41,863 nt of DNA from positions 9,491-51,353 of the forward strand of contig JAOZQG010000003.1 of the NCBI GenBank assembly GCA_029932365.1, given 5' to 3'. The translations under genes and the position numbers were made by a program. This DNA is from a bacterium. Lineage in GTDB: Bacteria; 4484-113. The notes below the pieces were generated by a model that saw only the letters and a list, made by a program, of their open reading frames with translations, did no database searches and was not told the origin of the DNA. Below, one piece after another: positions 217 to 15,525 of this stretch (the stretch's first letter is position 1; the number at the start of each line of letters is the position of its first letter).

Positions 217-3200
217 ATGTCTGTTAGATTCCTCAGCGGCTGGATACTGCTAATCTCGCTGCTTGCAGCTTTTGTCGCCTGCGGCAAATCCTCACATAAG
301 AGCCCGGGCGTCCTTCCCGCATTGTCGGAAGGCGCTCCCGTATCCGGCGAAGTTTCGCGGCTTGACAATCATGGTTTCGGCACGGAAGGCTTCGTCCCGG
401 GAGTGGACTACTATCCCGACAGGTTTGTTGTCGGTTTCACAGGTAGCGCCAAGCGCACAAGCGGCTCGCCCGCGCAGGTTGACTACAATCCCAGCTCAAG
501 GCTGTATGCCAATGCGAGCCTGGCGTCGCTGGCGCGGGAGATTCGCGACCGCTACGATGTGACGCTGGACAAGGAAGCCTACGTTCGCGGGGTGAACTTC
601 GCAAGCTACAAAACAAAAGACGGCTCGTGCGCCAAAAGCGTAATGGAGCGGATTCAGGCGGATTACGCCGACGCTATCGAATATATTGAATACGACGGGA
701 TTCGCTACCTGCAGTACGTCCCCAACGATCCCGATTATCCAGATAACCTCTGGGGCATGGTGAAGATTAACGCCGAAGACGCGTGGGATACCGAGAAAGG
801 CGACAGCGAAGTATTGGTCTGTGTTATCGACACCGGCGTGCGCTATTCCGGCGATACCGAGAGCGATGCGCCCGACCACGAGGATCTAGCTGATAATTAC
901 CTGCACCCGCCTGACCACTGGCCCGACGAGCAGTTCGATATTTACGATGAGGACAACGTGCCGGAGGACGCACACGGCCACGGATCTCATTGCTCTGGCA
1001 CTATTGGCGCTGTGGGTGATAACAGCAAGGGCGTCGTCGGCGTCGCCTACGAGGTAACAATGGTGATGATCCGCGTGTTCGGGCCCAGCGGTGGTTGTCC
1101 TGATAGCTGGGTAGCCACGGCGGTTGAGCTGGCGACGGAGATAGAATCCGATGTCATCAGCATGAGCCTGGGAGGCACCTTCCCCAACCTGGCGACGAAG
1201 GAAGCTTGCGAAGACGCTTACGACGAGGGTATCTTTCTTGCTGTGGCCGCTGCCAACTCCAACACAGACAAGCCCTACTACCCCGGCTATTACGAGGTCA
1301 ACTGTTGCGTCGGCGCTACTACCAGCACCGACAGCCGGGCTAGCTTCAGCAACTACGGGCAGTGGGTGGACATTGCCGCTCCTGGCGTTAGCATAAAGTC
1401 TTGTGGCTGCGCATCGACTTCAGCGTACATGAAGTGGGGCGGCACCAGCATGGCCACGCCCCACGTCGCAGGCGCGGCGGCCCTGCTCCTCAGCTATGAC
1501 AACACGCTCACGGTGGACGAGCTGCGCTCGGCGCTGGAAAGCACGGGCGCGGATCTCAGCGATTCCCAGTGGGGCAACCCCGACATTGAGCGCCTTGATG
1601 TGGACGCGGCGCTGGATTTCGTAATCGGCGACGAATTCGGCGTTCCGCCCACGGTCAGCATTGACAGCCCCGACGGCACTTCTTCAGTCAGCGGCACCGT
1701 GACGATTGAAGCCAGCGCATCGGACAGCGATGGCTCGATACTGAAGGTGTTCTTCTATGCCGACGGCGCTCAACTGGGCACCGATGACAGCGAGCCATAC
1801 ACTTGCGATTGGGATACTACTAAGTATCTGAACAAGGCCTACACGCTGAAAGCCGTGGCGCTGGATAATCAGCATATGACCGATGAGGATACGGTTTCGG
1901 TTAACGTGTCCAACACGGTCCAGACTCCGAATTACTTTATTGACTTTGAAAGCGGCTCCACTGGCTGGTGGAGCACCAACGAGGACGGCTCCGGCTACTG
2001 GCAGCTCGTGGACGATGACGGCGCCAGCGGAACGCACAGCTTCCACCAGGGCGGCGCGGGTGGCGGCAACTACGGCTACCAAGATTTCGACCGCCTTTTC
2101 TCACCGGTCTTTGATCTGAGCGGGCTGGAAGCGGTGCGCCTGAAGTTTATGCACCACTACGCCTTCGCCAGCTACGACTACGGCTATGTTATGGTGAATG
2201 ATGGCAGCCACGATTTTATCTTCTTGGACAGCTTCGGTCCCGGAACGCTCCCATCATGGACGCAAGAAACTTACAGCCTTAACGACTACATCGGCGAAAG
2301 CATCCAGGTAGTTTTCCTCTTCGAGGAATTCGGAGGAGGCTATGCCGCCGGCTGGTGGATTGACGATTTCGCGATTGAGAAGAAAACCGACCCCTGCGAC
2401 ATAGACATTACCTCGCCGGACGCGGATGCGGAGGTCAGTGGCACGGTGGATTTCGCCGCTGACGTAACCGACGACATTGAGGTTACGCTGGTGGAAATGT
2501 ACATAGATGACGAGCTGAAGGCCGATTTCACCGACGATGGCCCCTACGAATACTCCTGGGTAACGACCGACTACCATGGCGGACTGCACAGCCTGAAGAT
2601 TTACGCCGAGGACGAATGGCCAACCTCCAGCGAGGAGAGCATAAACGCAACGGTCAAGAACCACACAATCACTGGAGCCGATGTCACTTCGGGCATAGCT
2701 GGCGATACCGTAACTATAGAAGGCACGTATTTCATCGCTGATAGCGGCGACACTTACAGCGATTCTACGGATAAGCTTTACTTCAGTGGCGCGTCGGGCT
2801 GGTGCGAGGCGGCGGTGAATGACTGGCAGAAGGAAGAAATTGAAGTGATTGTGCCCGACGGCGCGGTTACCGGCCCGCTGATGGTGGATATAAACGGCGC
2901 CGAAGTTACGTCCGGCTTCGACTTCACCATGCTCCCGCATATAGACGCGCTCAATCCGGCCATCCAGGTTGTCGGCGGCGATATCACTGTCGAGGGCACT
3001 GGTTTCGGGGCGTCGGCCAACGAGGACAGCGTGGTGGACATCGGCGGTGTTGAAGCGGCCATCGTGTCGTGGAGCACAGAAGAAATCGAGATTACCATCC
3101 CCTCTGGGGTGACGCAGTCAGACCTGACAGTAACCGTAACCTCGGGGACGAGTAACGCCGTTGTCTTTACGCCGAAGCCGAATATCACCGGGCTTGACCC

Positions 3201-3468
3201 CGACCGTACCTGGCCGGGCAACGAGATAACCATTACCGGAACCAGCTTCGGGGATGACCAGGGCAGTAGCAATGTTACCTTCGCCGGCCCTGTTGAAGCC
3301 GGGGAACAGGACATTGTTAGCTGGAGCGAAACCGAGATTGTGGTGGTCTTGCCCGAGGATTCCGGACGGGGCGATGTGGTCGTAACGGTAAACGGCGTTG
3401 ACTCCGAGGGTGAATTCCTTATAGTAATACTGCCCCCGCCCGATTTGGGCGATTTGCAGCAGTACTAA
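217..3468 (+). CDS. Subtilisin-like (S8) serine protease lipoprotein with Ig-like and TIG/IPT repeats
   Basis: A secreted, probably outer-membrane-anchored protease of 1083 aa. A lipoprotein signal peptide ends at Cys22. Residues 60-180 form a propeptide-like region (YYPDRFVVGF). The S8 catalytic domain has Asp205 (VIDTG), His255 (HGSH) and Ser411 (GTSMATPH), with oxyanion Asn347. An Ig-like domain follows (about 475-570), then a jelly-roll-like segment starting FIDFESG (about 570-730), a second Ig-like domain (about 730-810) and three TIG/IPT units to the end, finishing PPPDLGDLQQY. The catalytic domain has eight cysteines that the paralogue at 10531 lacks. The C-terminal part from about residue 730 closely matches the C1 protease that follows. 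The ATG at 217 is chosen because it gives the signal peptide directly. Substrate is unknown. Confidence 0.93.
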   Translation: MSVRFLSGWILLISLLAAFVACGKSSHKSPGVLPALSEGAPVSGEVSRLDNHGFGTEGFVPGVDYYPDRFVVGFTGSAKRTSGSPAQVDYNPSSRLYANASLASLAREIRDRYDVTLDKEAYVRGVNFASYKTKDGSCAKSVMERIQADYADAIEYIEYDGIRYLQYVPNDPDYPDNLWGMVKINAEDAWDTEKGDSEVLVCVIDTGVRYSGDTESDAPDHEDLADNYLHPPDHWPDEQFDIYDEDNVPEDAHGHGSHCSGTIGAVGDNSKGVVGVAYEVTMVMIRVFGPSGGCPDSWVATAVELATEIESDVISMSLGGTFPNLATKEACEDAYDEGIFLAVAAANSNTDKPYYPGYYEVNCCVGATTSTDSRASFSNYGQWVDIAAPGVSIKSCGCASTSAYMKWGGTSMATPHVAGAAALLLSYDNTLTVDELRSALESTGADLSDSQWGNPDIERLDVDAALDFVIGDEFGVPPTVSIDSPDGTSSVSGTVTIEASASDSDGSILKVFFYADGAQLGTDDSEPYTCDWDTTKYLNKAYTLKAVALDNQHMTDEDTVSVNVSNTVQTPNYFIDFESGSTGWWSTNEDGSGYWQLVDDDGASGTHSFHQGGAGGGNYGYQDFDRLFSPVFDLSGLEAVRLKFMHHYAFASYDYGYVMVNDGSHDFIFLDSFGPGTLPSWTQETYSLNDYIGESIQVVFLFEEFGGGYAAGWWIDDFAIEKKTDPCDIDITSPDADAEVSGTVDFAADVTDDIEVTLVEMYIDDELKADFTDDGPYEYSWVTTDYHGGLHSLKIYAEDEWPTSSEESINATVKNHTITGADVTSGIAGDTVTIEGTYFIADSGDTYSDSTDKLYFSGASGWCEAAVNDWQKEEIEVIVPDGAVTGPLMVDINGAEVTSGFDFTMLPHIDALNPAIQVVGGDITVEGTGFGASANEDSVVDIGGVEAAIVSWSTEEIEITIPSGVTQSDLTVTVTSGTSNAVVFTPKPNITGLDPDRTWPGNEITITGTSFGDDQGSSNVTFAGPVEAGEQDIVSWSETEIVVVLPEDSGRGDVVVTVNGVDSEGEFLIVILPPPDLGDLQQY

Positions 3469-3567
3469 GATGTCGCTCCAGGCGGCGATTCCTCGCCGGG
3501 GCGGCGGAACCTTGAACGTAAGGGCTTTGCAGACTACACTCGTATTCGGGAGGACAGGCGGCGCAAC

Positions 3568-6228
3568 ATGATTCATTTGTGCGGTTCCGGAACTGGACGG
3601 ATAAACAGAACCCGCATACGCCAAATCCTGCGGGTGCTGCTGGTTGTCAGCGCTTTGGCGCTCGTTGGCTGCGGCGGAAGCGGCAAATCCCCGCCCACGC
3701 TTGTTGATACTGCCGATATCGCAGATTCCACTAAGTCTGAACAGGCGGATGCGCAAAGCCAGGGGCAAGATGAGAGCAGCGAATATACCCATCTGGTGAA
3801 AGTGACGATGCGGCCGCAGGAGCCGTTGGAGGCCGGGCCGGGGCTGCCGTTGCCATCACCCTCGGAGGCTCTCGGGCTTCTGCCTGAAGCCAAAGCAGGC
3901 TCAACCATTGAGGAAGCACTGATACGCTCAGGTTCTTCCTACGAGGAAGCTTTGCCGCATAGCAGGATTTCGCGGGATGGCGACTATCTCGTATTCAATG
4001 CCGAACCCGGCGACGACAGGTCTGCGCTATCCTGCGAATTTTCGTTCGCCGCGTACCGTTTCTCAGTTGCGGATTACGACGGAAGTCAGACGATGGGATT
4101 TGATTGGGGACTCCCCCCGAGCGGATGAGGGATTGACCGGCCTGAGTTTCAGGTCGGCTTTGGAAATTTCTCTGACGATACGTGGGAATGGTACGAGGGG
4201 CCGCGCGACGACGTCCTGACGCTTGAGTCCTATGAGCCTTACACTGCGGCTGACGGCGATGTGCTGGCAGTGGTTGTGCTGGATGACACAATGGAGTTCA
4301 CGCTCAAGCAACTGGCTGTGGGTGAATACGAAATCCGCGCCCTGGGCGATGAATGGTCAGGAAGTATCTCTGAAATCGACGCGCAGCGCTGGGCCTCTGC
4401 ATCGGAAAGAGACGCGCAGCGCCGGGTTTCGGACCTGCCGGCGTCAGTTGACCTTACCAGCGGCTGCTCTCCGGTGAGAGACCAGGGAGGGATTGGCTCC
4501 TGCACCGCGTTCGCGGTCGGCCCCGGCGCCTACGATTACGAGCTGGGGAGCATCTACGCCTACTATGGCTGGGATTTCAGCAACGACTTCAACCTGTCCA
4601 GCCCGAAGTGGCTCTACCGCAAGACCGGGTCGGGCTGTGGCCCAACTTCAGGCCGAACTACCTGGAAAGTGGTGGATTTTCTGGAGACGGATGGCACATC
4701 CAGCGAAGAGAACTGTCCGTATACGAACGTATGCGGTAGCGACTGCACCAGCCAGGACGCATACGACGACGCGGAGCTTCTCCAGATTGACAGCTGGTCA
4801 TTCGTATTCCGGTACTGGACCGAAGATGAAATAACTCCTATCAAAGATGTATTAGCCAATGAAGAGCGCGTGCTGGTGATGCGCACGAATGTGGATAATG
4901 GGATATTTGGCTACGAGCCTGGTGACGTATGGAACTACACAGGGCCTACAATTGGCGGGCATGCGATGTGCGTCGTTGGCTATGATGATTCCATAGAAGC
5001 GTTTAAGGTGCGCAATAGCTGGGGTGCTGACTGGGGCGATAACGGTTACCTGTGGATTGGCTACGAAACATTTTTGAATTACAGCGGCGCGCAGATTTAC
5101 TGCTGCAAGATGGTGGATTCTTTCGACGAGGATGTTCGCCAGCGGTTCTTGCAGCCCCCGTCCATAACCATCACTGCGCCGTCGGATGGGGCCACGGTTT
5201 CGGGAACGACCGATTTCGCCGCGGACGTAACGGACAACACCGCAGTCGAGCTTGTTGAAATGTACATTGATGGTGAAATGGTGGCCGATTTCACCAGCGA
5301 GCCGTACGAGTACTCCTGGGACACGACCGACTATCACGGCGGCGCGCACACGCTAAAGGTCTACGCGGAGGATGACACTTCCGTGTGGTACGAGGAGCAG
5401 ATAAGCGTTTATGTTGAAAATCACACGGTCACCGGTATCAATCCTGAATCCGAAATTACGGGAGCGACGGTCACCATTGAAGGAACCTGCTTCCTGGGTG
5501 GAGACGGCGATGCTTACAACGGTTCGACCGATAAGGTTTTCTTTAGCGGAGTTTCGGGCTGGAGCGTGGCAACGGTGACTGACTGGCAGGCGGAAGAAAT
5601 CGAGGCGGTCGTTCCCGACGATGCGGTAACAGGTCCGGTCAAGGTGGACATTAACGGGGCGGAAGTCACCTCCAGCTTCGATTTTCCGGTTCTCCCGCAC
5701 ATAGACGCGCTGAATCCTCCCGCCCAGGAGATAGGAGCTAACATCATCATTGAGGGAACCGGCTTTGGCACATCGGCCAACGAGGACAGCTCCGTGGACA
5801 TCGGCGGCTTGAAGCCGACGATTATATCTTGGGCCAACACTGAAGTTGAGATAACCATCCCATCCGGTGTCACTAAATCGGACCTAACTGTTACCGTGAC
5901 GGCGGGGACGAGTAACGCAGTTGTCTTCAAGCCCAAGCCGAACATCACAGGGATTGATCCTGATCGGGTATGGCCGGGCAGGTGTATAACGATTACGGGA
6001 GTCAGTTTCGGCGACGAAGCAGGTGACAGCACGGTTACTTTTGCGGGGCCGGCTCAGCCGAAAGTGGAGCAGCCCGCAGAATGGAGTGATTCGGAAATAG
6101 TTGTAGAGGTGCCGGAAGGCGCGAAGCGGGGCGACGTGGTGGTGACCGTTGACGGCGTTGATTCGGAAGGTGAGTTTTTGATAGTCATCCTTTCCCCGCC
6201 AGTACTGGGCGGTATCCAGCAGTACTAA
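3568..6228 (+). pseudogene. Papain-like (C1) cysteine protease lipoprotein with TIG repeats, interrupted by in-frame TGA
   Basis: One reading frame runs through with a single TGA at 4126-4128. Upstream are a lipoprotein signal (LVGC, Cys35) and an N-terminal region. After the stop the same frame continues without a start into sequence that reads as normal protein (DRPEFQVGFGNFSDD) and then the catalytic domain. Papain signatures are Gln in DQGGIGSC with Cys at 4501-4503, His in GGHAMCVVGYD and Asn in RNSWG. An Ig-like domain and three TIG units follow, ending PPVLGGIQQY. From about 5150 to the end it is closely similar to the C-terminus of the S8 protease at 217. The downstream part alone would have to start at GTG 4261 with no ribosome site and no export signal. 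A nonsense mutation, sequence error or readthrough are all possible; TGA is a normal stop elsewhere here (purA). Confidence 0.8.
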
Positions 6229-10530: not shown

Positions 10531-13500
10531 ATGAAAGTGAGTGCACCAAGGGGACAAACGTCTCGAAGGTTCGTTGCGCTTGCTGTGGGAGTCCTTTCAG
10601 GGCTCATACTGGCGACCGGCTGCGGTGAGCGCGGGAATGTTGTGCCGGGTCCTCCGCGTGTGGCGCCAGAGCGTAGCGTTGCGCGTATAGCAGATATAGA
10701 CCATTATCCCGACAGGATAATCGTGAAGTTCGCACGAGACGCAGCCCCTCCGGCTGGCGTCGACACAGGCAGCGCCGGATTGCCCCCGTCGGTGCTGTAT
10801 CAAAACACCGCCCCGGCGTTCTTTGCGCGCTATCTCGCAGAGCGGTTTGATTTGGCTATCAAGCAGGAGGCCTATGTGCGGGAGGTCAATTGGGCCTGTT
10901 TCAAAGCTGAATCCGCTGAATTAGCATCGCATCTGCTCGAGAGACTCCCCGCAGCCTATCCCCTTGAAGTGGAGTATGCGGAGTACGACGGGCGATTTGA
11001 GCCAAACTTCGTCCCTAACGACCCATTTTATCCCGGTAGCATGTGGGGAATGGAGAAGATAAACGCCGAGGACGCGTGGGACTCCGCCACGGGCGATGGA
11101 ATAAAGATAGCCGTAATTGATACGGGCATCCGCTATAGCGGCAATCTCTCCTCGTCAGTGCCTGACCACGAAGACCTGAAGGACAATGTGATGCATCCGC
11201 CGGATTACTGGCCAGATGAAAACCTTGACCTGGTGGACGAAGACAACATACCAAACGATACAGTAGGTCACGGGACGCACGTTGCCGGAACCGCCGCTGC
11301 CGTCGGAGACAATGGGAAGGGCGTTGTTGGCGTGGCGTACGAGGCAGACATTATCCCCATCAAGATATTCTCTTCCGACGAGCAGCTTTACTACTCCCGC
11401 GCCATACAGGCGATTACGCTGGCGACAGAATTGGACGCAAACGTCATAAACATGAGCTTCACCGGCAGCTGGCTTTCTCGGACACTGAGCGAGGCGCTGA
11501 CGGATGCCTACGACCAGGGGATCTTGCTGGTAGCGGCGGCGGGCAACAAGGCTCTGACGAAGCCGTGGTATCCCGCAGGCTACCAGGTCGTTATGGCTGT
11601 CGGCTCGACAGGAACCCTGGACCATCGCTCCGATTTCAGTAATTATGGTCCATGGCTGGACATAGCCGCGCCAGGCTACGAAATCAAGTCCACATACTCA
11701 ACAACCTCTCAGTCCTACTGGTCTCTGTCAGGCACGAGCATGGCTGCCCCGCACGTTGCAGGCACCGGTGCGCTTCTGATGGAGGCTAATCCCGACTTGT
11801 CAGTTGGCGAGGTGCGGGCAACACTTGAGGCTTCGGGCGTAGACCTGGAAGACTCGGAGTGGGACAACACAACCATACGCCGCCTTGATGCGGGGGCCGC
11901 ATTGAGTTACAACCTCGGCAGCGCTCCCACGATAACCATCACCTCTCCGGAGAACGGCTCCACAGTTAGCGGGATGGTCACCTACAGCGTGAATGTGACG
12001 GACCCCGATGGGAGCGTGCTCAAAGTCTACTTCTACGTCGGCGACTACCTTCTAGCGATTGACACCACGACGCCCTTTTCGATCACCTGGGATACGACCA
12101 AGTTCCCAAACACGACCTACGACCTCTGTGCTATAGCCTACGATGACCAAGCCCAACGGGCCTCAGATACGATATCCGTCACGGTCTCCAATACTATTCT
12201 GGCGCCTGACTACTTCATCGATTTCGAGAGCGGAACGGGCGGGTGGTGGCATCTGGACGAGAGTGGGCCTACGAGCTGGCATCTATCTACTGAGGAAAGC
12301 TACAGCCCAACACATTCCTTCAAGATGGGTGATACGGGCAGCGGTTCTTACGGGAACAGCGAATATGACCTGTTATTTTCTCCCGTATTTGACCTCTCAG
12401 GCATTGAGCACGCTAGAGTTAAGTTCTACCACCGCCATCTTTTGGTGGGCCCCTGGGATACCGGCAATGTAACCGTTAATACCGGTGATGGCGAGTACCA
12501 CGTGCTTGCATCATACACGGACAATCAATATGACTGGAAGCTCGAAAACCTGCTGCTTGACGAGTATCTCGGGAAATCCATCCAGATTGTTTTCTTGATG
12601 GAGTCCAACAACACCGTTAATAGCAAGGGTTGGTTCATCGACGACTTCCGCCTCGTGAAATCCACAGATCCGCCATCTGTCGCCCTCACATCGCATCAGA
12701 ACGACGATGTTGTGAGCGGGACGATTACTGTAACGGCAACCGCAAGCGACGATGTTGATATCAGCAAGGTAGAGCTTTATGTAAACGATGAACTGGCCGG
12801 AAGCGACTCTATCCCGCCCTATACGTTCGAGTTCAACACGCTTGTCCTGCACGGCGGGGACAACGCTTTCCGCGTTACCGCATACGACGAGTTCCCCCTG
12901 ACCGTGAGCGACGAGGTGAATCTCATCGTTCAGAATCAGCAGATAACGTCAATTTGGCCCCAAAGCGCCACGGCAGGCACGGCTATGGATATCAATGGAA
13001 GCCACTTCATCTCGGATGGTGATGACGGCTACAATCCGGACACCGACGAGGTGTTTTTCGCGGGTGAAGGAGGTCTGTGTAAATCGGAAGTCAGCATCTG
13101 GGCCAAGAACTATATCTCCTGCACTGTGCCCCCCGAAGCTACAATCGGGCCGGTATATGTGGTAATCGGGAGTTCCTCCGTGGCCTCGGACGAGGAGTTC
13201 ATGATCAAGCCCAAGATTGATATCCTGAATCCTGATGCCCAGATTGTGGATGAAACAATCCTCATTGAAGGGAGCGGATTCCTTTCCGAGCAGGCAGACG
13301 GTAACGTCACTTTCAACGGGCTACAGGCGGCGAACGTGCGTACCTGGAGCACTCAGGCAATAGAGGTCGTCGTTCCGCACGGAGTCACTGCGGGGCCGGT
13401 GAAGGTGAAAACCGAAGTGGGTGTCAGTAACGGGGTCGCTTTTACGCCGGTGCCCCATATCACCATGCTATCCTCCAGCCGGGCCTACATAGGAAAGATG

Positions 13501-13740
13501 CTGACGATATTCGGTACTAGCTTTGGCAGTGATGCGAGCAAAGGCTCCGTGTGGTTCCACAATGGCGTTGAAGTGCCGGGGACTAATACGGTCTGGCAGG
13601 CAACGCAGATAGGCGTGTTCGTGCCAAACGGCGCGGAGACGGGCGATATATATGTGGCAGTCGGCACATACGAAAGTAACAGAGTTTGGCTTACCGTTAC
13701 ATTGCCACCGCCTTATTTGGGGGAACTAAATCAGTATTAG
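10531..13740 (+). CDS. Second subtilisin-like (S8) protease lipoprotein with Ig-like and TIG/IPT repeats
   Basis: A 1069-aa paralogue of the protease at 217 with the same order of parts: lipoprotein signal (LATGC, Cys31), propeptide with HYPDRIIVKF, VPNDPFYPGSMWGMEKINAEDAW leading into the catalytic domain (split here as VPNDPFYPG and KINAEDAW motifs), catalytic Asp197 (VIDTG), His247 (GHGTHVAGT), Asn in AAAGNK and Ser403 (GTSMAAPHVAGT). An Ig-like domain, a FIDFESGTGGWW jelly-roll-like segment, a second Ig-like domain and three TIG units follow, ending PPPYLGELNQY. The catalytic domain lacks the cysteines of its paralogue. ATG 10531 is chosen because it gives the signal peptide; the frame extends to 10480 but that part overlaps the promoter. 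Confidence 0.93.
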   Translation: MKVSAPRGQTSRRFVALAVGVLSGLILATGCGERGNVVPGPPRVAPERSVARIADIDHYPDRIIVKFARDAAPPAGVDTGSAGLPPSVLYQNTAPAFFARYLAERFDLAIKQEAYVREVNWACFKAESAELASHLLERLPAAYPLEVEYAEYDGRFEPNFVPNDPFYPGSMWGMEKINAEDAWDSATGDGIKIAVIDTGIRYSGNLSSSVPDHEDLKDNVMHPPDYWPDENLDLVDEDNIPNDTVGHGTHVAGTAAAVGDNGKGVVGVAYEADIIPIKIFSSDEQLYYSRAIQAITLATELDANVINMSFTGSWLSRTLSEALTDAYDQGILLVAAAGNKALTKPWYPAGYQVVMAVGSTGTLDHRSDFSNYGPWLDIAAPGYEIKSTYSTTSQSYWSLSGTSMAAPHVAGTGALLMEANPDLSVGEVRATLEASGVDLEDSEWDNTTIRRLDAGAALSYNLGSAPTITITSPENGSTVSGMVTYSVNVTDPDGSVLKVYFYVGDYLLAIDTTTPFSITWDTTKFPNTTYDLCAIAYDDQAQRASDTISVTVSNTILAPDYFIDFESGTGGWWHLDESGPTSWHLSTEESYSPTHSFKMGDTGSGSYGNSEYDLLFSPVFDLSGIEHARVKFYHRHLLVGPWDTGNVTVNTGDGEYHVLASYTDNQYDWKLENLLLDEYLGKSIQIVFLMESNNTVNSKGWFIDDFRLVKSTDPPSVALTSHQNDDVVSGTITVTATASDDVDISKVELYVNDELAGSDSIPPYTFEFNTLVLHGGDNAFRVTAYDEFPLTVSDEVNLIVQNQQITSIWPQSATAGTAMDINGSHFISDGDDGYNPDTDEVFFAGEGGLCKSEVSIWAKNYISCTVPPEATIGPVYVVIGSSSVASDEEFMIKPKIDILNPDAQIVDETILIEGSGFLSEQADGNVTFNGLQAANVRTWSTQAIEVVVPHGVTAGPVKVKTEVGVSNGVAFTPVPHITMLSSSRAYIGKMLTIFGTSFGSDASKGSVWFHNGVEVPGTNTVWQATQIGVFVPNGAETGDIYVAVGTYESNRVWLTVTLPPPYLGELNQY

Positions 13741-13806: not shown

Positions 13807-15525
13807 ATGAGATCGCACGAATTATGCCTTATTGCGTTGGTGCTGGTATTGCTTTCCGCTTGTGGTGGCGGTAGCGCCGGGGTCTTGGAGCGCACCGTCA
13901 GCCCGGGGTCGGATATAGCTGCGCCGGTTCTGAGCGGTGTTGAGTACGCGCGCGGAAAAGCTATTTCCGGGCTCCCCACAGGCGTGATAGTCATCTGGGA
14001 GCGCGTGGAAGATCCGCTAGCGGTCGGCTACTACCTGTATCGCGATACACAGCATATTACCGCCGCTGATCCTGCGCTGCGCACTAACGGTGGAAATATG
14101 ATAGACCAGCCCGGCTCTGGCGCAACGGTCACATTTTACGACGAGTTCTATCCCGAGGTGGGGCAGACCTACTACTACCGTCTTTCTGTCGTGGATGTCT
14201 ACGATGAAGAAAGCGACTTGAGCAATGAGCTTAGCATTGAAATCTCCACTCAGGAAGTAACCGGCTTTGAGCCGGCTTCCGGCTATTACGGCGATACGGT
14301 GATTATTGGTGGCACGAATTTCGGCATTCACAACATAGATGATGACCACGTTTTCTTCCCCACGGATTCTTCAGATAGAGTAGAGGCCGAAATACTGTCC
14401 TGGGAGGATACCGAGATTCAATGCGTTGTGCCGACGGATGCGATTACCGGGCCGATTCAAGTTCAGATTGCAGGCACGGTGGCTAAGAGCGATGAGAACT
14501 TCGTGATATTGAATCCTTTTCTTATTTCCGTTACCCCGAAGTATGCGAGTTACAATGAGGAAATCCGGCTTGCTGGCGAGAATCTCACCGATTCGCCCGA
14601 AGCCGATGACGGGGTAACGTTCCCCGGCAACGTATTCATTGAATACGGCTCGGAGTATCTCGTATCTTGGTCGAATACGGAGGTTGTCCTTCGTGTCCCG
14701 CCGGTGATAGATGCGGAGGGGGAAATAACCGCTACGGTAGATGGCGAGGTTACTAACGGGCTGCCATTTTCCATTCGGCCTTACATTAGCGCGGTGACAC
14801 CGAGGAGGCTGGTTCCGGGTTCCCCTACAAAGGTATTTCTTGTAGGTCTCAATTTGGGCGATATTGTATCCGGTCGACTATACATTGTAGATGTTTCCGA
14901 TGAAAATCCCGTTGCACCGGTCGAGGTGACCGATCCGCACATCCTTTCCTGGGACAATTACGAGATAGTGTTTCGCGTGCCGTTTATGCTATACGGCGAA
15001 ATGCCTGCTATCACGGTTAGGCGCGGATCGCACTGGAGCGATAATTACACGGTGGCGATGCTCGAGCCGCTCAGCATAGGTTTCCTCTTTCCCGCCCAGA
15101 ACTCAACTCTGGAGGCTCCCACGACAATTGCGGTCACCTCGGTGACCGATGTCACGCGTGTGGAGTTCTATCTAGGCTCAGCCAACTGCCCTCTTTATGT
15201 CGACGCTGAGGGTCCGGAGTTCTCCTTTGTGCTAGACCCGCAGGATTACACAAACGGCAGCTATTACATCAGAGCGGCGGCGTACCGGGGTGCCGAGAAA
15301 GCATACGCGCTCCTGCTGTTCGACATACTGACGCTTCCCGGGGACACCAACGGGGACGGCGTTGTGGACGATGCTGACATTGACCAAATCAGCTCTCACT
15401 TCGGATTGACCTCCGCGAGTCCGCTCTATCACCGTTATCTTGACCCTAACGATGACGGCCGGATTGACGAGCGGGATGTAAGCTACATCGGCTACCACTA
15501 TACGGGCAGCTTTGAGGAGTCCTAA
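13807..15525 (+). CDS. Lipoprotein with fibronectin-III-like, TIG/IPT, Ig-like and type I dockerin domains
   Basis: A 572-aa surface lipoprotein (LLSAC, Cys19). Residues about 40-145 look like a fibronectin type III domain, followed by three TIG/IPT units (about 146-230, 231-325, 326-425) and an Ig-like domain (about 426-510). The last 60 residues are a type I dockerin with two calcium loops, DTNGDGVVDDAD and DPNDDGRIDERD. Dockerins bind cohesins to build extracellular complexes, but no cohesin is recognisable in the window. There is no catalytic domain. TIG architecture is shared with the two S8 and the C1 protease genes, so it may belong to the same surface system. The stop codon directly abuts the GTG start of the next gene. 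Confidence 0.85.
   Translation: MRSHELCLIALVLVLLSACGGGSAGVLERTVSPGSDIAAPVLSGVEYARGKAISGLPTGVIVIWERVEDPLAVGYYLYRDTQHITAADPALRTNGGNMIDQPGSGATVTFYDEFYPEVGQTYYYRLSVVDVYDEESDLSNELSIEISTQEVTGFEPASGYYGDTVIIGGTNFGIHNIDDDHVFFPTDSSDRVEAEILSWEDTEIQCVVPTDAITGPIQVQIAGTVAKSDENFVILNPFLISVTPKYASYNEEIRLAGENLTDSPEADDGVTFPGNVFIEYGSEYLVSWSNTEVVLRVPPVIDAEGEITATVDGEVTNGLPFSIRPYISAVTPRRLVPGSPTKVFLVGLNLGDIVSGRLYIVDVSDENPVAPVEVTDPHILSWDNYEIVFRVPFMLYGEMPAITVRRGSHWSDNYTVAMLEPLSIGFLFPAQNSTLEAPTTIAVTSVTDVTRVEFYLGSANCPLYVDAEGPEFSFVLDPQDYTNGSYYIRAAAYRGAEKAYALLLFDILTLPGDTNGDGVVDDADIDQISSHFGLTSASPLYHRYLDPNDDGRIDERDVSYIGYHYTGSFEES

Follow-up and report, generated by a model that had tools for sequence, protein, structure and literature searches.

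The window analysed here, a 41,863-nt stretch of DNA, raises a question about one of its genes. It encodes two adjacent proteases, a subtilisin-type (S8a) and a papain-type (C1) enzyme, and the C1 frame (3568-6228) is interrupted by a TGA at codon 187 (4126-4128), its sole break. Can such a frame give rise to a single protein? The original prediction treated C1 as one gene and made no mention of the TGA, a call that is right only if the codon is decoded, whereas under the standard code the frame is not open. We consider it very likely that the in-frame UGA is decoded as selenocysteine (Sec), and, for the picture as a whole, likely that C1 is one continuous, exported, Sec-containing papain-type protease with a tail shared with other proteases. 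Contig C64, from which the window comes, belongs to a metagenome-assembled genome of an uncultured sediment bacterium (G000; 1.94 Mb, 88.5% complete, 143 contigs). Our comparison set comprised ten genomes of its phylum (4484-113, which we take to be the name of a GTDB phylum as well), three of them from one family: G000, a separately assembled metagenome-assembled genome of the same genus, g1 (G001, in the public record Planctomycetales bacterium CSMAG_2248), and a same-family genome (G002, Planctomycetales bacterium 4484_113); the other seven lie outside this family. Domains were called with Pfam, the N-terminal domain of C1 was modelled with AlphaFold2, and ratios of nonsynonymous to synonymous substitution rates (dN/dS) were computed between G000 and G001 by the Nei-Gojobori method.

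The C1 gene of G001 has a single internal TGA, at the same codon, and the two proteins are 76% identical. G002 has an uninterrupted C1 frame with TGC (Cys) at the aligned position, LPDCGCGANRPDF facing LPPSGUGIDRPEF. Were the TGA a true stop, C1 would be a pseudogene, or a gene that a nonsense mutation had cut short in the common ancestor of G000 and G001. A single TGA interrupting an otherwise continuous frame would fit such a history, and papain-type paralogues (on G001:C10 and G002:C47) could make the loss tolerable. However, purifying selection has acted on both sides of the TGA since the species split, with dN/dS values of 0.19 for codons 61-186 and 0.10 for codons 188-231 (catalytic domain, 0.11; C-terminal module, 0.15), at a dS of ~0.7-0.9. 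Neither genome has any other stop or frameshift within the 886 C1 codons, and a hairpin with the geometry of a selenocysteine insertion sequence (SECIS), described below, follows the TGA. Together, these observations make a true stop very unlikely.

We also considered that the locus encodes two proteins, i.e., a 186-residue lipoprotein and a papain-type protease starting at GTG 4261 or later. Each half is open, and the GTG occupies the equivalent place in both genomes. Yet the 44 codons between the TGA and this first start (188-231), which contain no ATG, GTG or TTG, form the most constrained N-terminal stretch of the gene, and since constraint on codons that lack a start is hard to explain otherwise, it suggests that ribosomes pass the TGA. 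Moreover, the downstream starts are not preceded by a Shine-Dalgarno-like sequence (best, four of six matches), the split would fall inside one beta domain, the downstream protease would be left without a signal peptide, and the G002 frame runs on continuously with Cys at this site. Two separate products are, in our view, highly improbable; standard gene calling splits genes of this kind.

Past the TGA, the sequence reads GGGATTGA-CCGGCCTG-AGTTT-CAGGTCGG in G000 and GGCGCGGACA-GGCCTG-AGTTC-CAGGTC in G001, and in both genomes the predicted hairpin places a 5-nt AGUUY loop exactly 16 nt past the UGA. Published rules for bacterial SECIS elements (bSECIS; PMC13188914) specify a loop of 3-9 nt, a stem of 4-16 bp, a G at loop position 1 or 2, a spacing of 16-37 nt and a minimum free energy of at most -7.5. 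The G000 hairpin (energy about -13.7) conforms to every one of these rules, and that of G001 to those on loop, stem, G and spacing. SelD genes, found in eight of the ten phylum genomes, all contain an in-frame TGA of their own (in a CAGU context in the G000 copy; L097, G000:C110), and all eight can place a 5-nt NGNNN loop (AGGCN, CGTGN or CGGGT) exactly 16 nt past it; their hairpins are mostly weaker than that of the G001 C1 gene (-3.3 to -8.0 kcal/mol by the same measure). When a strict test (5-nt loop at 16 nt, at least six pairs, at least four of them G-C) was run on all fetched DNA, 10 of 12,092 distinct TGA contexts passed: two C1, two SelD and six others. As this test was defined post hoc, with the sites already known, its 0.05% background serves as a yardstick and not as a p-value.

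G000 encodes SelA (365 bits), SelD with its in-frame TGA, and SelB, the latter matched by two pieces in one frame (230 and 25 bits, C-terminal part included; the single piece falls below the curated cut-off of 242). It also has two HdrA-type genes with an in-frame TGA, and the copy that we read (L132, G000:C79) shows the canonical CSIU context. Given these genes, the Sec machinery is in use in G000 independently of C1. HdrA genes with an in-frame TGA were found in several phylum genomes, and ARAGORN confirmed tRNA-Sec in G001 and other phylum members. In the HdrA copy that we read, a GGUC-loop hairpin lies 27 nt downstream of the TGA. Among molybdopterin oxidoreductases (PF00384), a TGA-containing match was found only in G009 (G009:C1:41255-41740, likely a Sec formate dehydrogenase) and none in G000.

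Readthrough by a near-cognate tRNA (e.g., Trp), or reassignment of UGA, would keep the frame just as well as Sec. But TGA is an ordinary stop in 4 of 21 sampled window genes and at the end of the C1 gene of G001, so that the code is not reassigned; moreover, the residue aligned in the open G002 relative is Cys, and the hairpin has the geometry seen at SelD in these genomes, where Sec machinery is present. We therefore give readthrough or reassignment a very slim chance. An assembly or sequencing error, for which the metagenomic origin of both genomes might speak, has next to no probability, given an identical TGA codon in two separately assembled genomes whose proteins share only 76% identity.

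The decoding of UGA as Sec thus draws on the conservation of the codon, constraint on both of its sides, the Sec/Cys exchange, the SECIS geometry and the Sec machinery of the genome. Several observations weigh against it. Only two sequences have the TGA and one has Cys, and in all other phylum homologues the Sec loop is shorter or missing, without Cys. The six-pair hairpin of G001, at about -7.3 kcal/mol, is slightly weaker than the -7.5 guideline asks, and its 42-nt segment has a competing minimum-energy fold (z 0.01). Neither a covariance model nor BLAST with the G001 locus found tRNA-Sec in G000 (88.5% complete), where the region syntenic to the G001 tRNA-Sec locus matched half of that locus, without the tRNA; tRNA-Sec was also not found in G002, whose assembly is incomplete. 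A contig search with the C1 alignment matched only G001 and G002 and gave no further Sec orthologues. In a search of 289 genomes, the C1 domain occurred in other phyla, with neither the N-domain combination nor a further internal TGA among the matches listed.

If codon 187 is read as Sec, directed by the hairpin at 4137-4157, translation would yield an 886-residue protein consisting of a signal peptide with lipid anchor, an N-terminal beta-rich domain, the C1 protease domain and a tail of Big_7 plus three TIG units. The predicted Sec would then be carried by a lineage-specific loop (SGUG) between two strands of the beta-rich domain. Gln306, Cys312, His465 and Asn483 are invariant in the three orthologues, and structure matches identified xylellain (3ois) as the best solved relative of the C1 domain. 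Since the catalytic Cys, His and Asn are normal, Sec187 would not be the catalytic nucleophile. No Pfam entry matches the N-terminal beta domain of C1. This domain recurs in dozens of large phylum proteins (G003, G004, G005), mostly without a C1 match.

Exactly two chalcogen residues occur in the N-domain: Cys156 and Sec187 in G000 and G001, and Cys185 and Cys187, a CGC pair, in G002. From this correlation in two lineages, we infer a reversible Sec187-Cys156 selenenylsulfide in G000 and G001 and a vicinal-type disulfide in the G002 pair. The N-domain could then serve as a clamp or switch, sensitive to redox state, on an exported protease in anoxic sediment, although we regard redox control of the protease outside the cell by this pair as possible but doubtful. 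Sec187 might instead form a structural bond, bind a metal, or be tolerated where Cys would do. Here too there are points on the other side: the Sec loop is modelled at low confidence (pLDDT <50), so the Cys156-Sec187 distance is not readable from the model; SGU fits neither of the standard redox motifs, UxxC and CxxU; and Cys156 is a partner by correlation only.

Like known bSECIS selenoproteins (SelD, HdrA), C1 combines an in-frame UGA, a Cys homologue and, past the UGA, a hairpin whose first two loop positions include a G, in a genome encoding SelA, SelB and SelD. Whereas most of the known ones are thiol oxidoreductases carrying a UxxC or CxxU motif, it would be an exported protease, a lipoprotein whose Sec lies in an accessory domain. 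Catalogued bacterial selenoproteins are overwhelmingly redox enzymes. No papain or C1 family appears in the 2022 table (PMC9312934) or in the 2026 catalogue of 119 families (PMC13188914), and we found no report of a papain or C1 selenoprotein in the open literature, most subscription papers lying outside the search. C1 would accordingly be a candidate for a new selenoprotein family within a known mechanism, and the first papain-family one against the two published lists. A trypsin-like serine protease selenoprotein predicted from the GOS metagenome (PMC9312934 Table 1), missing from the 2026 catalogue (PMC13188914), is likewise a protease-family protein with a predicted Sec, but has a trypsin and not a papain fold. 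The SGUG context is shared with selenobacteriocin TIGR04081 (2026 catalogue, PMC13188914), a likeness of four residues only, and the C1 protein gives no match to the TIGR04081 model. With papain family C1 and xylellain (3ois), the protein shares the catalytic Gln, Cys, His and Asn and the fold; it differs from them in its N-terminal beta domain with Sec, its lipobox and its Big_7/TIG tail. If the prediction is true, the selenoproteins gain a surface lipoprotein of the papain family whose Sec lies apart from the active site, and the use of Sec extends to extracellular proteolysis in sediment bacteria. If the switch is also true, Sec would regulate an extracellular hydrolase instead of serving oxidoreductase catalysis, in a genus of an uncultured phylum. 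The orthologous Sec/Cys pair of G001 and G002 offers a ready comparison for what Sec adds.

We next turn to the tail. The original prediction held that S8a and C1 end in a common module of Ig plus three TIG units, and indeed their modules are 67% identical over 356 aa (5158-6225 in C1, 2392-3465 in S8a). Pfam resolves the papain-type protein into C1, one Big_7 and three TIG, with PF17957 and PF01833 matches above the curated score, in agreement with the proposed layout; in both S8 proteins it finds S8, two Big_7, a weak MAM-like stretch and TIG. A second S8 gene at 10531 (S8b) carries the module as anticipated, though diverged (12667-13737; 35% identity to the C1 module and 38% to that of S8a). 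The claim that the catalytic domains are unrelated holds as well (S8, PF00082, versus C1, PF00112), and a third class exists beyond the window. A terminal PPxLGxLxQY, followed directly by the stop, ends four, three and one genes in the three family genomes; a pattern search found it in none of the seven other phylum genomes, and a reversed control pattern gave one match across all ten. The fourth carrier, read in G001 (L146:190-3477), matches TIGR03296 (142 bits; cut-off 111), which makes it an M6 metalloprotease, and also has Big_7, choice-of-anchor J and TIG domains; in G000 this gene (L118:3-1163) is cut by a contig end. Judged by sequence, then, one tail occurs with S8, C1 and M6 catalytic domains.

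Since TIG and Big_7 domains occur widely in G000 and across its phylum, the module might be an ordinary TIG array with no special tie between the two proteases. Against this, the neighbours share 67% identity over 356 aa, while other TIG/Big_7 proteins of G000 give partial matches only, at 30-40%, and in G001 the two modules bear a signal of gene conversion, with half-module trees in conflict (see below). The two neighbours are thus far closer to each other than members of an ordinary array would be, and we hold that reading to be very unlikely. A scan of the genome contigs with the module alone gave no matches. Compared with the Big_7/TIG tails of secreted hydrolases, which belong to the same families (PF17957, PF01833), this one differs in being nearly alike on S8 and C1 neighbours, in its lineage-limited PPxLGxLxQY end and in its presence on M6 too. 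The module had been proposed to anchor or target a dedicated set of surface proteases. The unrelated catalytic classes joined to the same tail speak for such a set, but not for an anchor: C1, S8a and S8b each have, by reading only, a lipobox-like signal peptide at the N-terminus (LVGC, FVAC and ATGC, respectively), which makes N-terminal anchoring simpler and a C-terminal anchor unnecessary. Most likely, the shared tail would be a common stalk or binding module for an exported protease set (two S8, one C1, one M6). A dockerin-type domain, present in the TIG/Big_7 protein downstream of S8b (13807-15525), also lies at the end of an S8 protease at L120:1054-4290. The features of the locus are listed in the table.

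Table. Features of the protease locus, in window coordinates.
Feature	Position	Strand	Evidence
S8a, lipoprotein subtilisin-type protease: S8 domain, Big_7, MAM-like, module	217..3468	+	PF00082 170 bits, residues 197-447; lipobox-like FVAC (translation read)
S8a shared C-terminal module: Big_7 and three TIG, end PPPDLGDLQQY	2392..3465	+	67% identity with C1 module, 356 aa
C1, papain-type lipoprotein protease, 886 aa if internal TGA is read	3568..6228	+	translation; 76% aa identity with G001 orthologue, TGA in same place
C1 lipobox Cys35 (ALVGC)	3670..3672	+	translation read; LVGC likewise in G001
C1 N-terminal beta-rich domain with Sec position	3790..4347	+	kept in 13 phylum homologues; AlphaFold2 mean pLDDT 81, Sec loop <50
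C1 Cys156, sole Cys of N-domain, possible Sec187 partner	4033..4035	+	in G000 and G001; not in G002, which has Cys185
In-frame TGA, codon 187, predicted selenocysteine (SGUG)	4126..4128	+	kept in G001; aligns with TGC (Cys) in G002
Predicted bacterial SECIS hairpin CCGGCCUG-AGUUU-CAGGUCGG, loop start 16 nt past UGA	4137..4157	+	geometry as in SelD SECIS of the phylum
C1 catalytic domain	4435..5067	+	PF00112 55 bits; Gln306 (4483), Cys312 (4501), His465 (4960), Asn483 (5014) intact
C1 shared C-terminal module: Big_7 and three TIG	5158..6225	+	Pfam, alignment
C1 C-terminal end SPPVLGGIQQY	6193..6225	+	pattern limited to S8a, C1, S8b and M6-type gene
S8b, second lipoprotein subtilisin-type protease, diverged module	10531..13740	+	PF00082 194 bits; module identity 35-38%
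S8b module copy, end PPPYLGELNQY	12667..13737	+	alignment
Lipoprotein-like TIG/Big_7/dockerin protein, no recognised catalytic domain	13807..15525	+	Pfam; downstream of S8b in G000, G001 and G002

The gene layout is the same in G000 and G001, where S8a and C1 are followed by purA, S8b and the TIG/dockerin protein. In G002, S8a adjoins S8b after purA, and C1, on a separate contig, carries four TIG units but lacks Big_7. S8a has thus been relocated; in genus g1 it sits beside C1 and upstream of a SpoIID-like gene. Probably it was in this genus that C1 acquired its S8a-type tail.

For the first half of the module, the tree sorts the sequences by gene (C1 with C1, S8a with S8a), whereas that of the second half joins the C1 and S8a of G001 with a support of 0.96. 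Over the last four 40-column blocks, DNA identity is 86-97% for these two G001 genes and only 59-74% for the C1 orthologues. The conflict between the half-module trees, taken with this DNA identity, indicates that gene conversion has evened out the tails of the two adjacent genes in G001, a process that would keep the tails of neighbouring genes alike. G001 and G002 also encode a second type of C1 paralogue (L122:1049-2863 and L123:1643-3235), which has no Big_7/TIG tail and, by eye, a fibronectin-like end.

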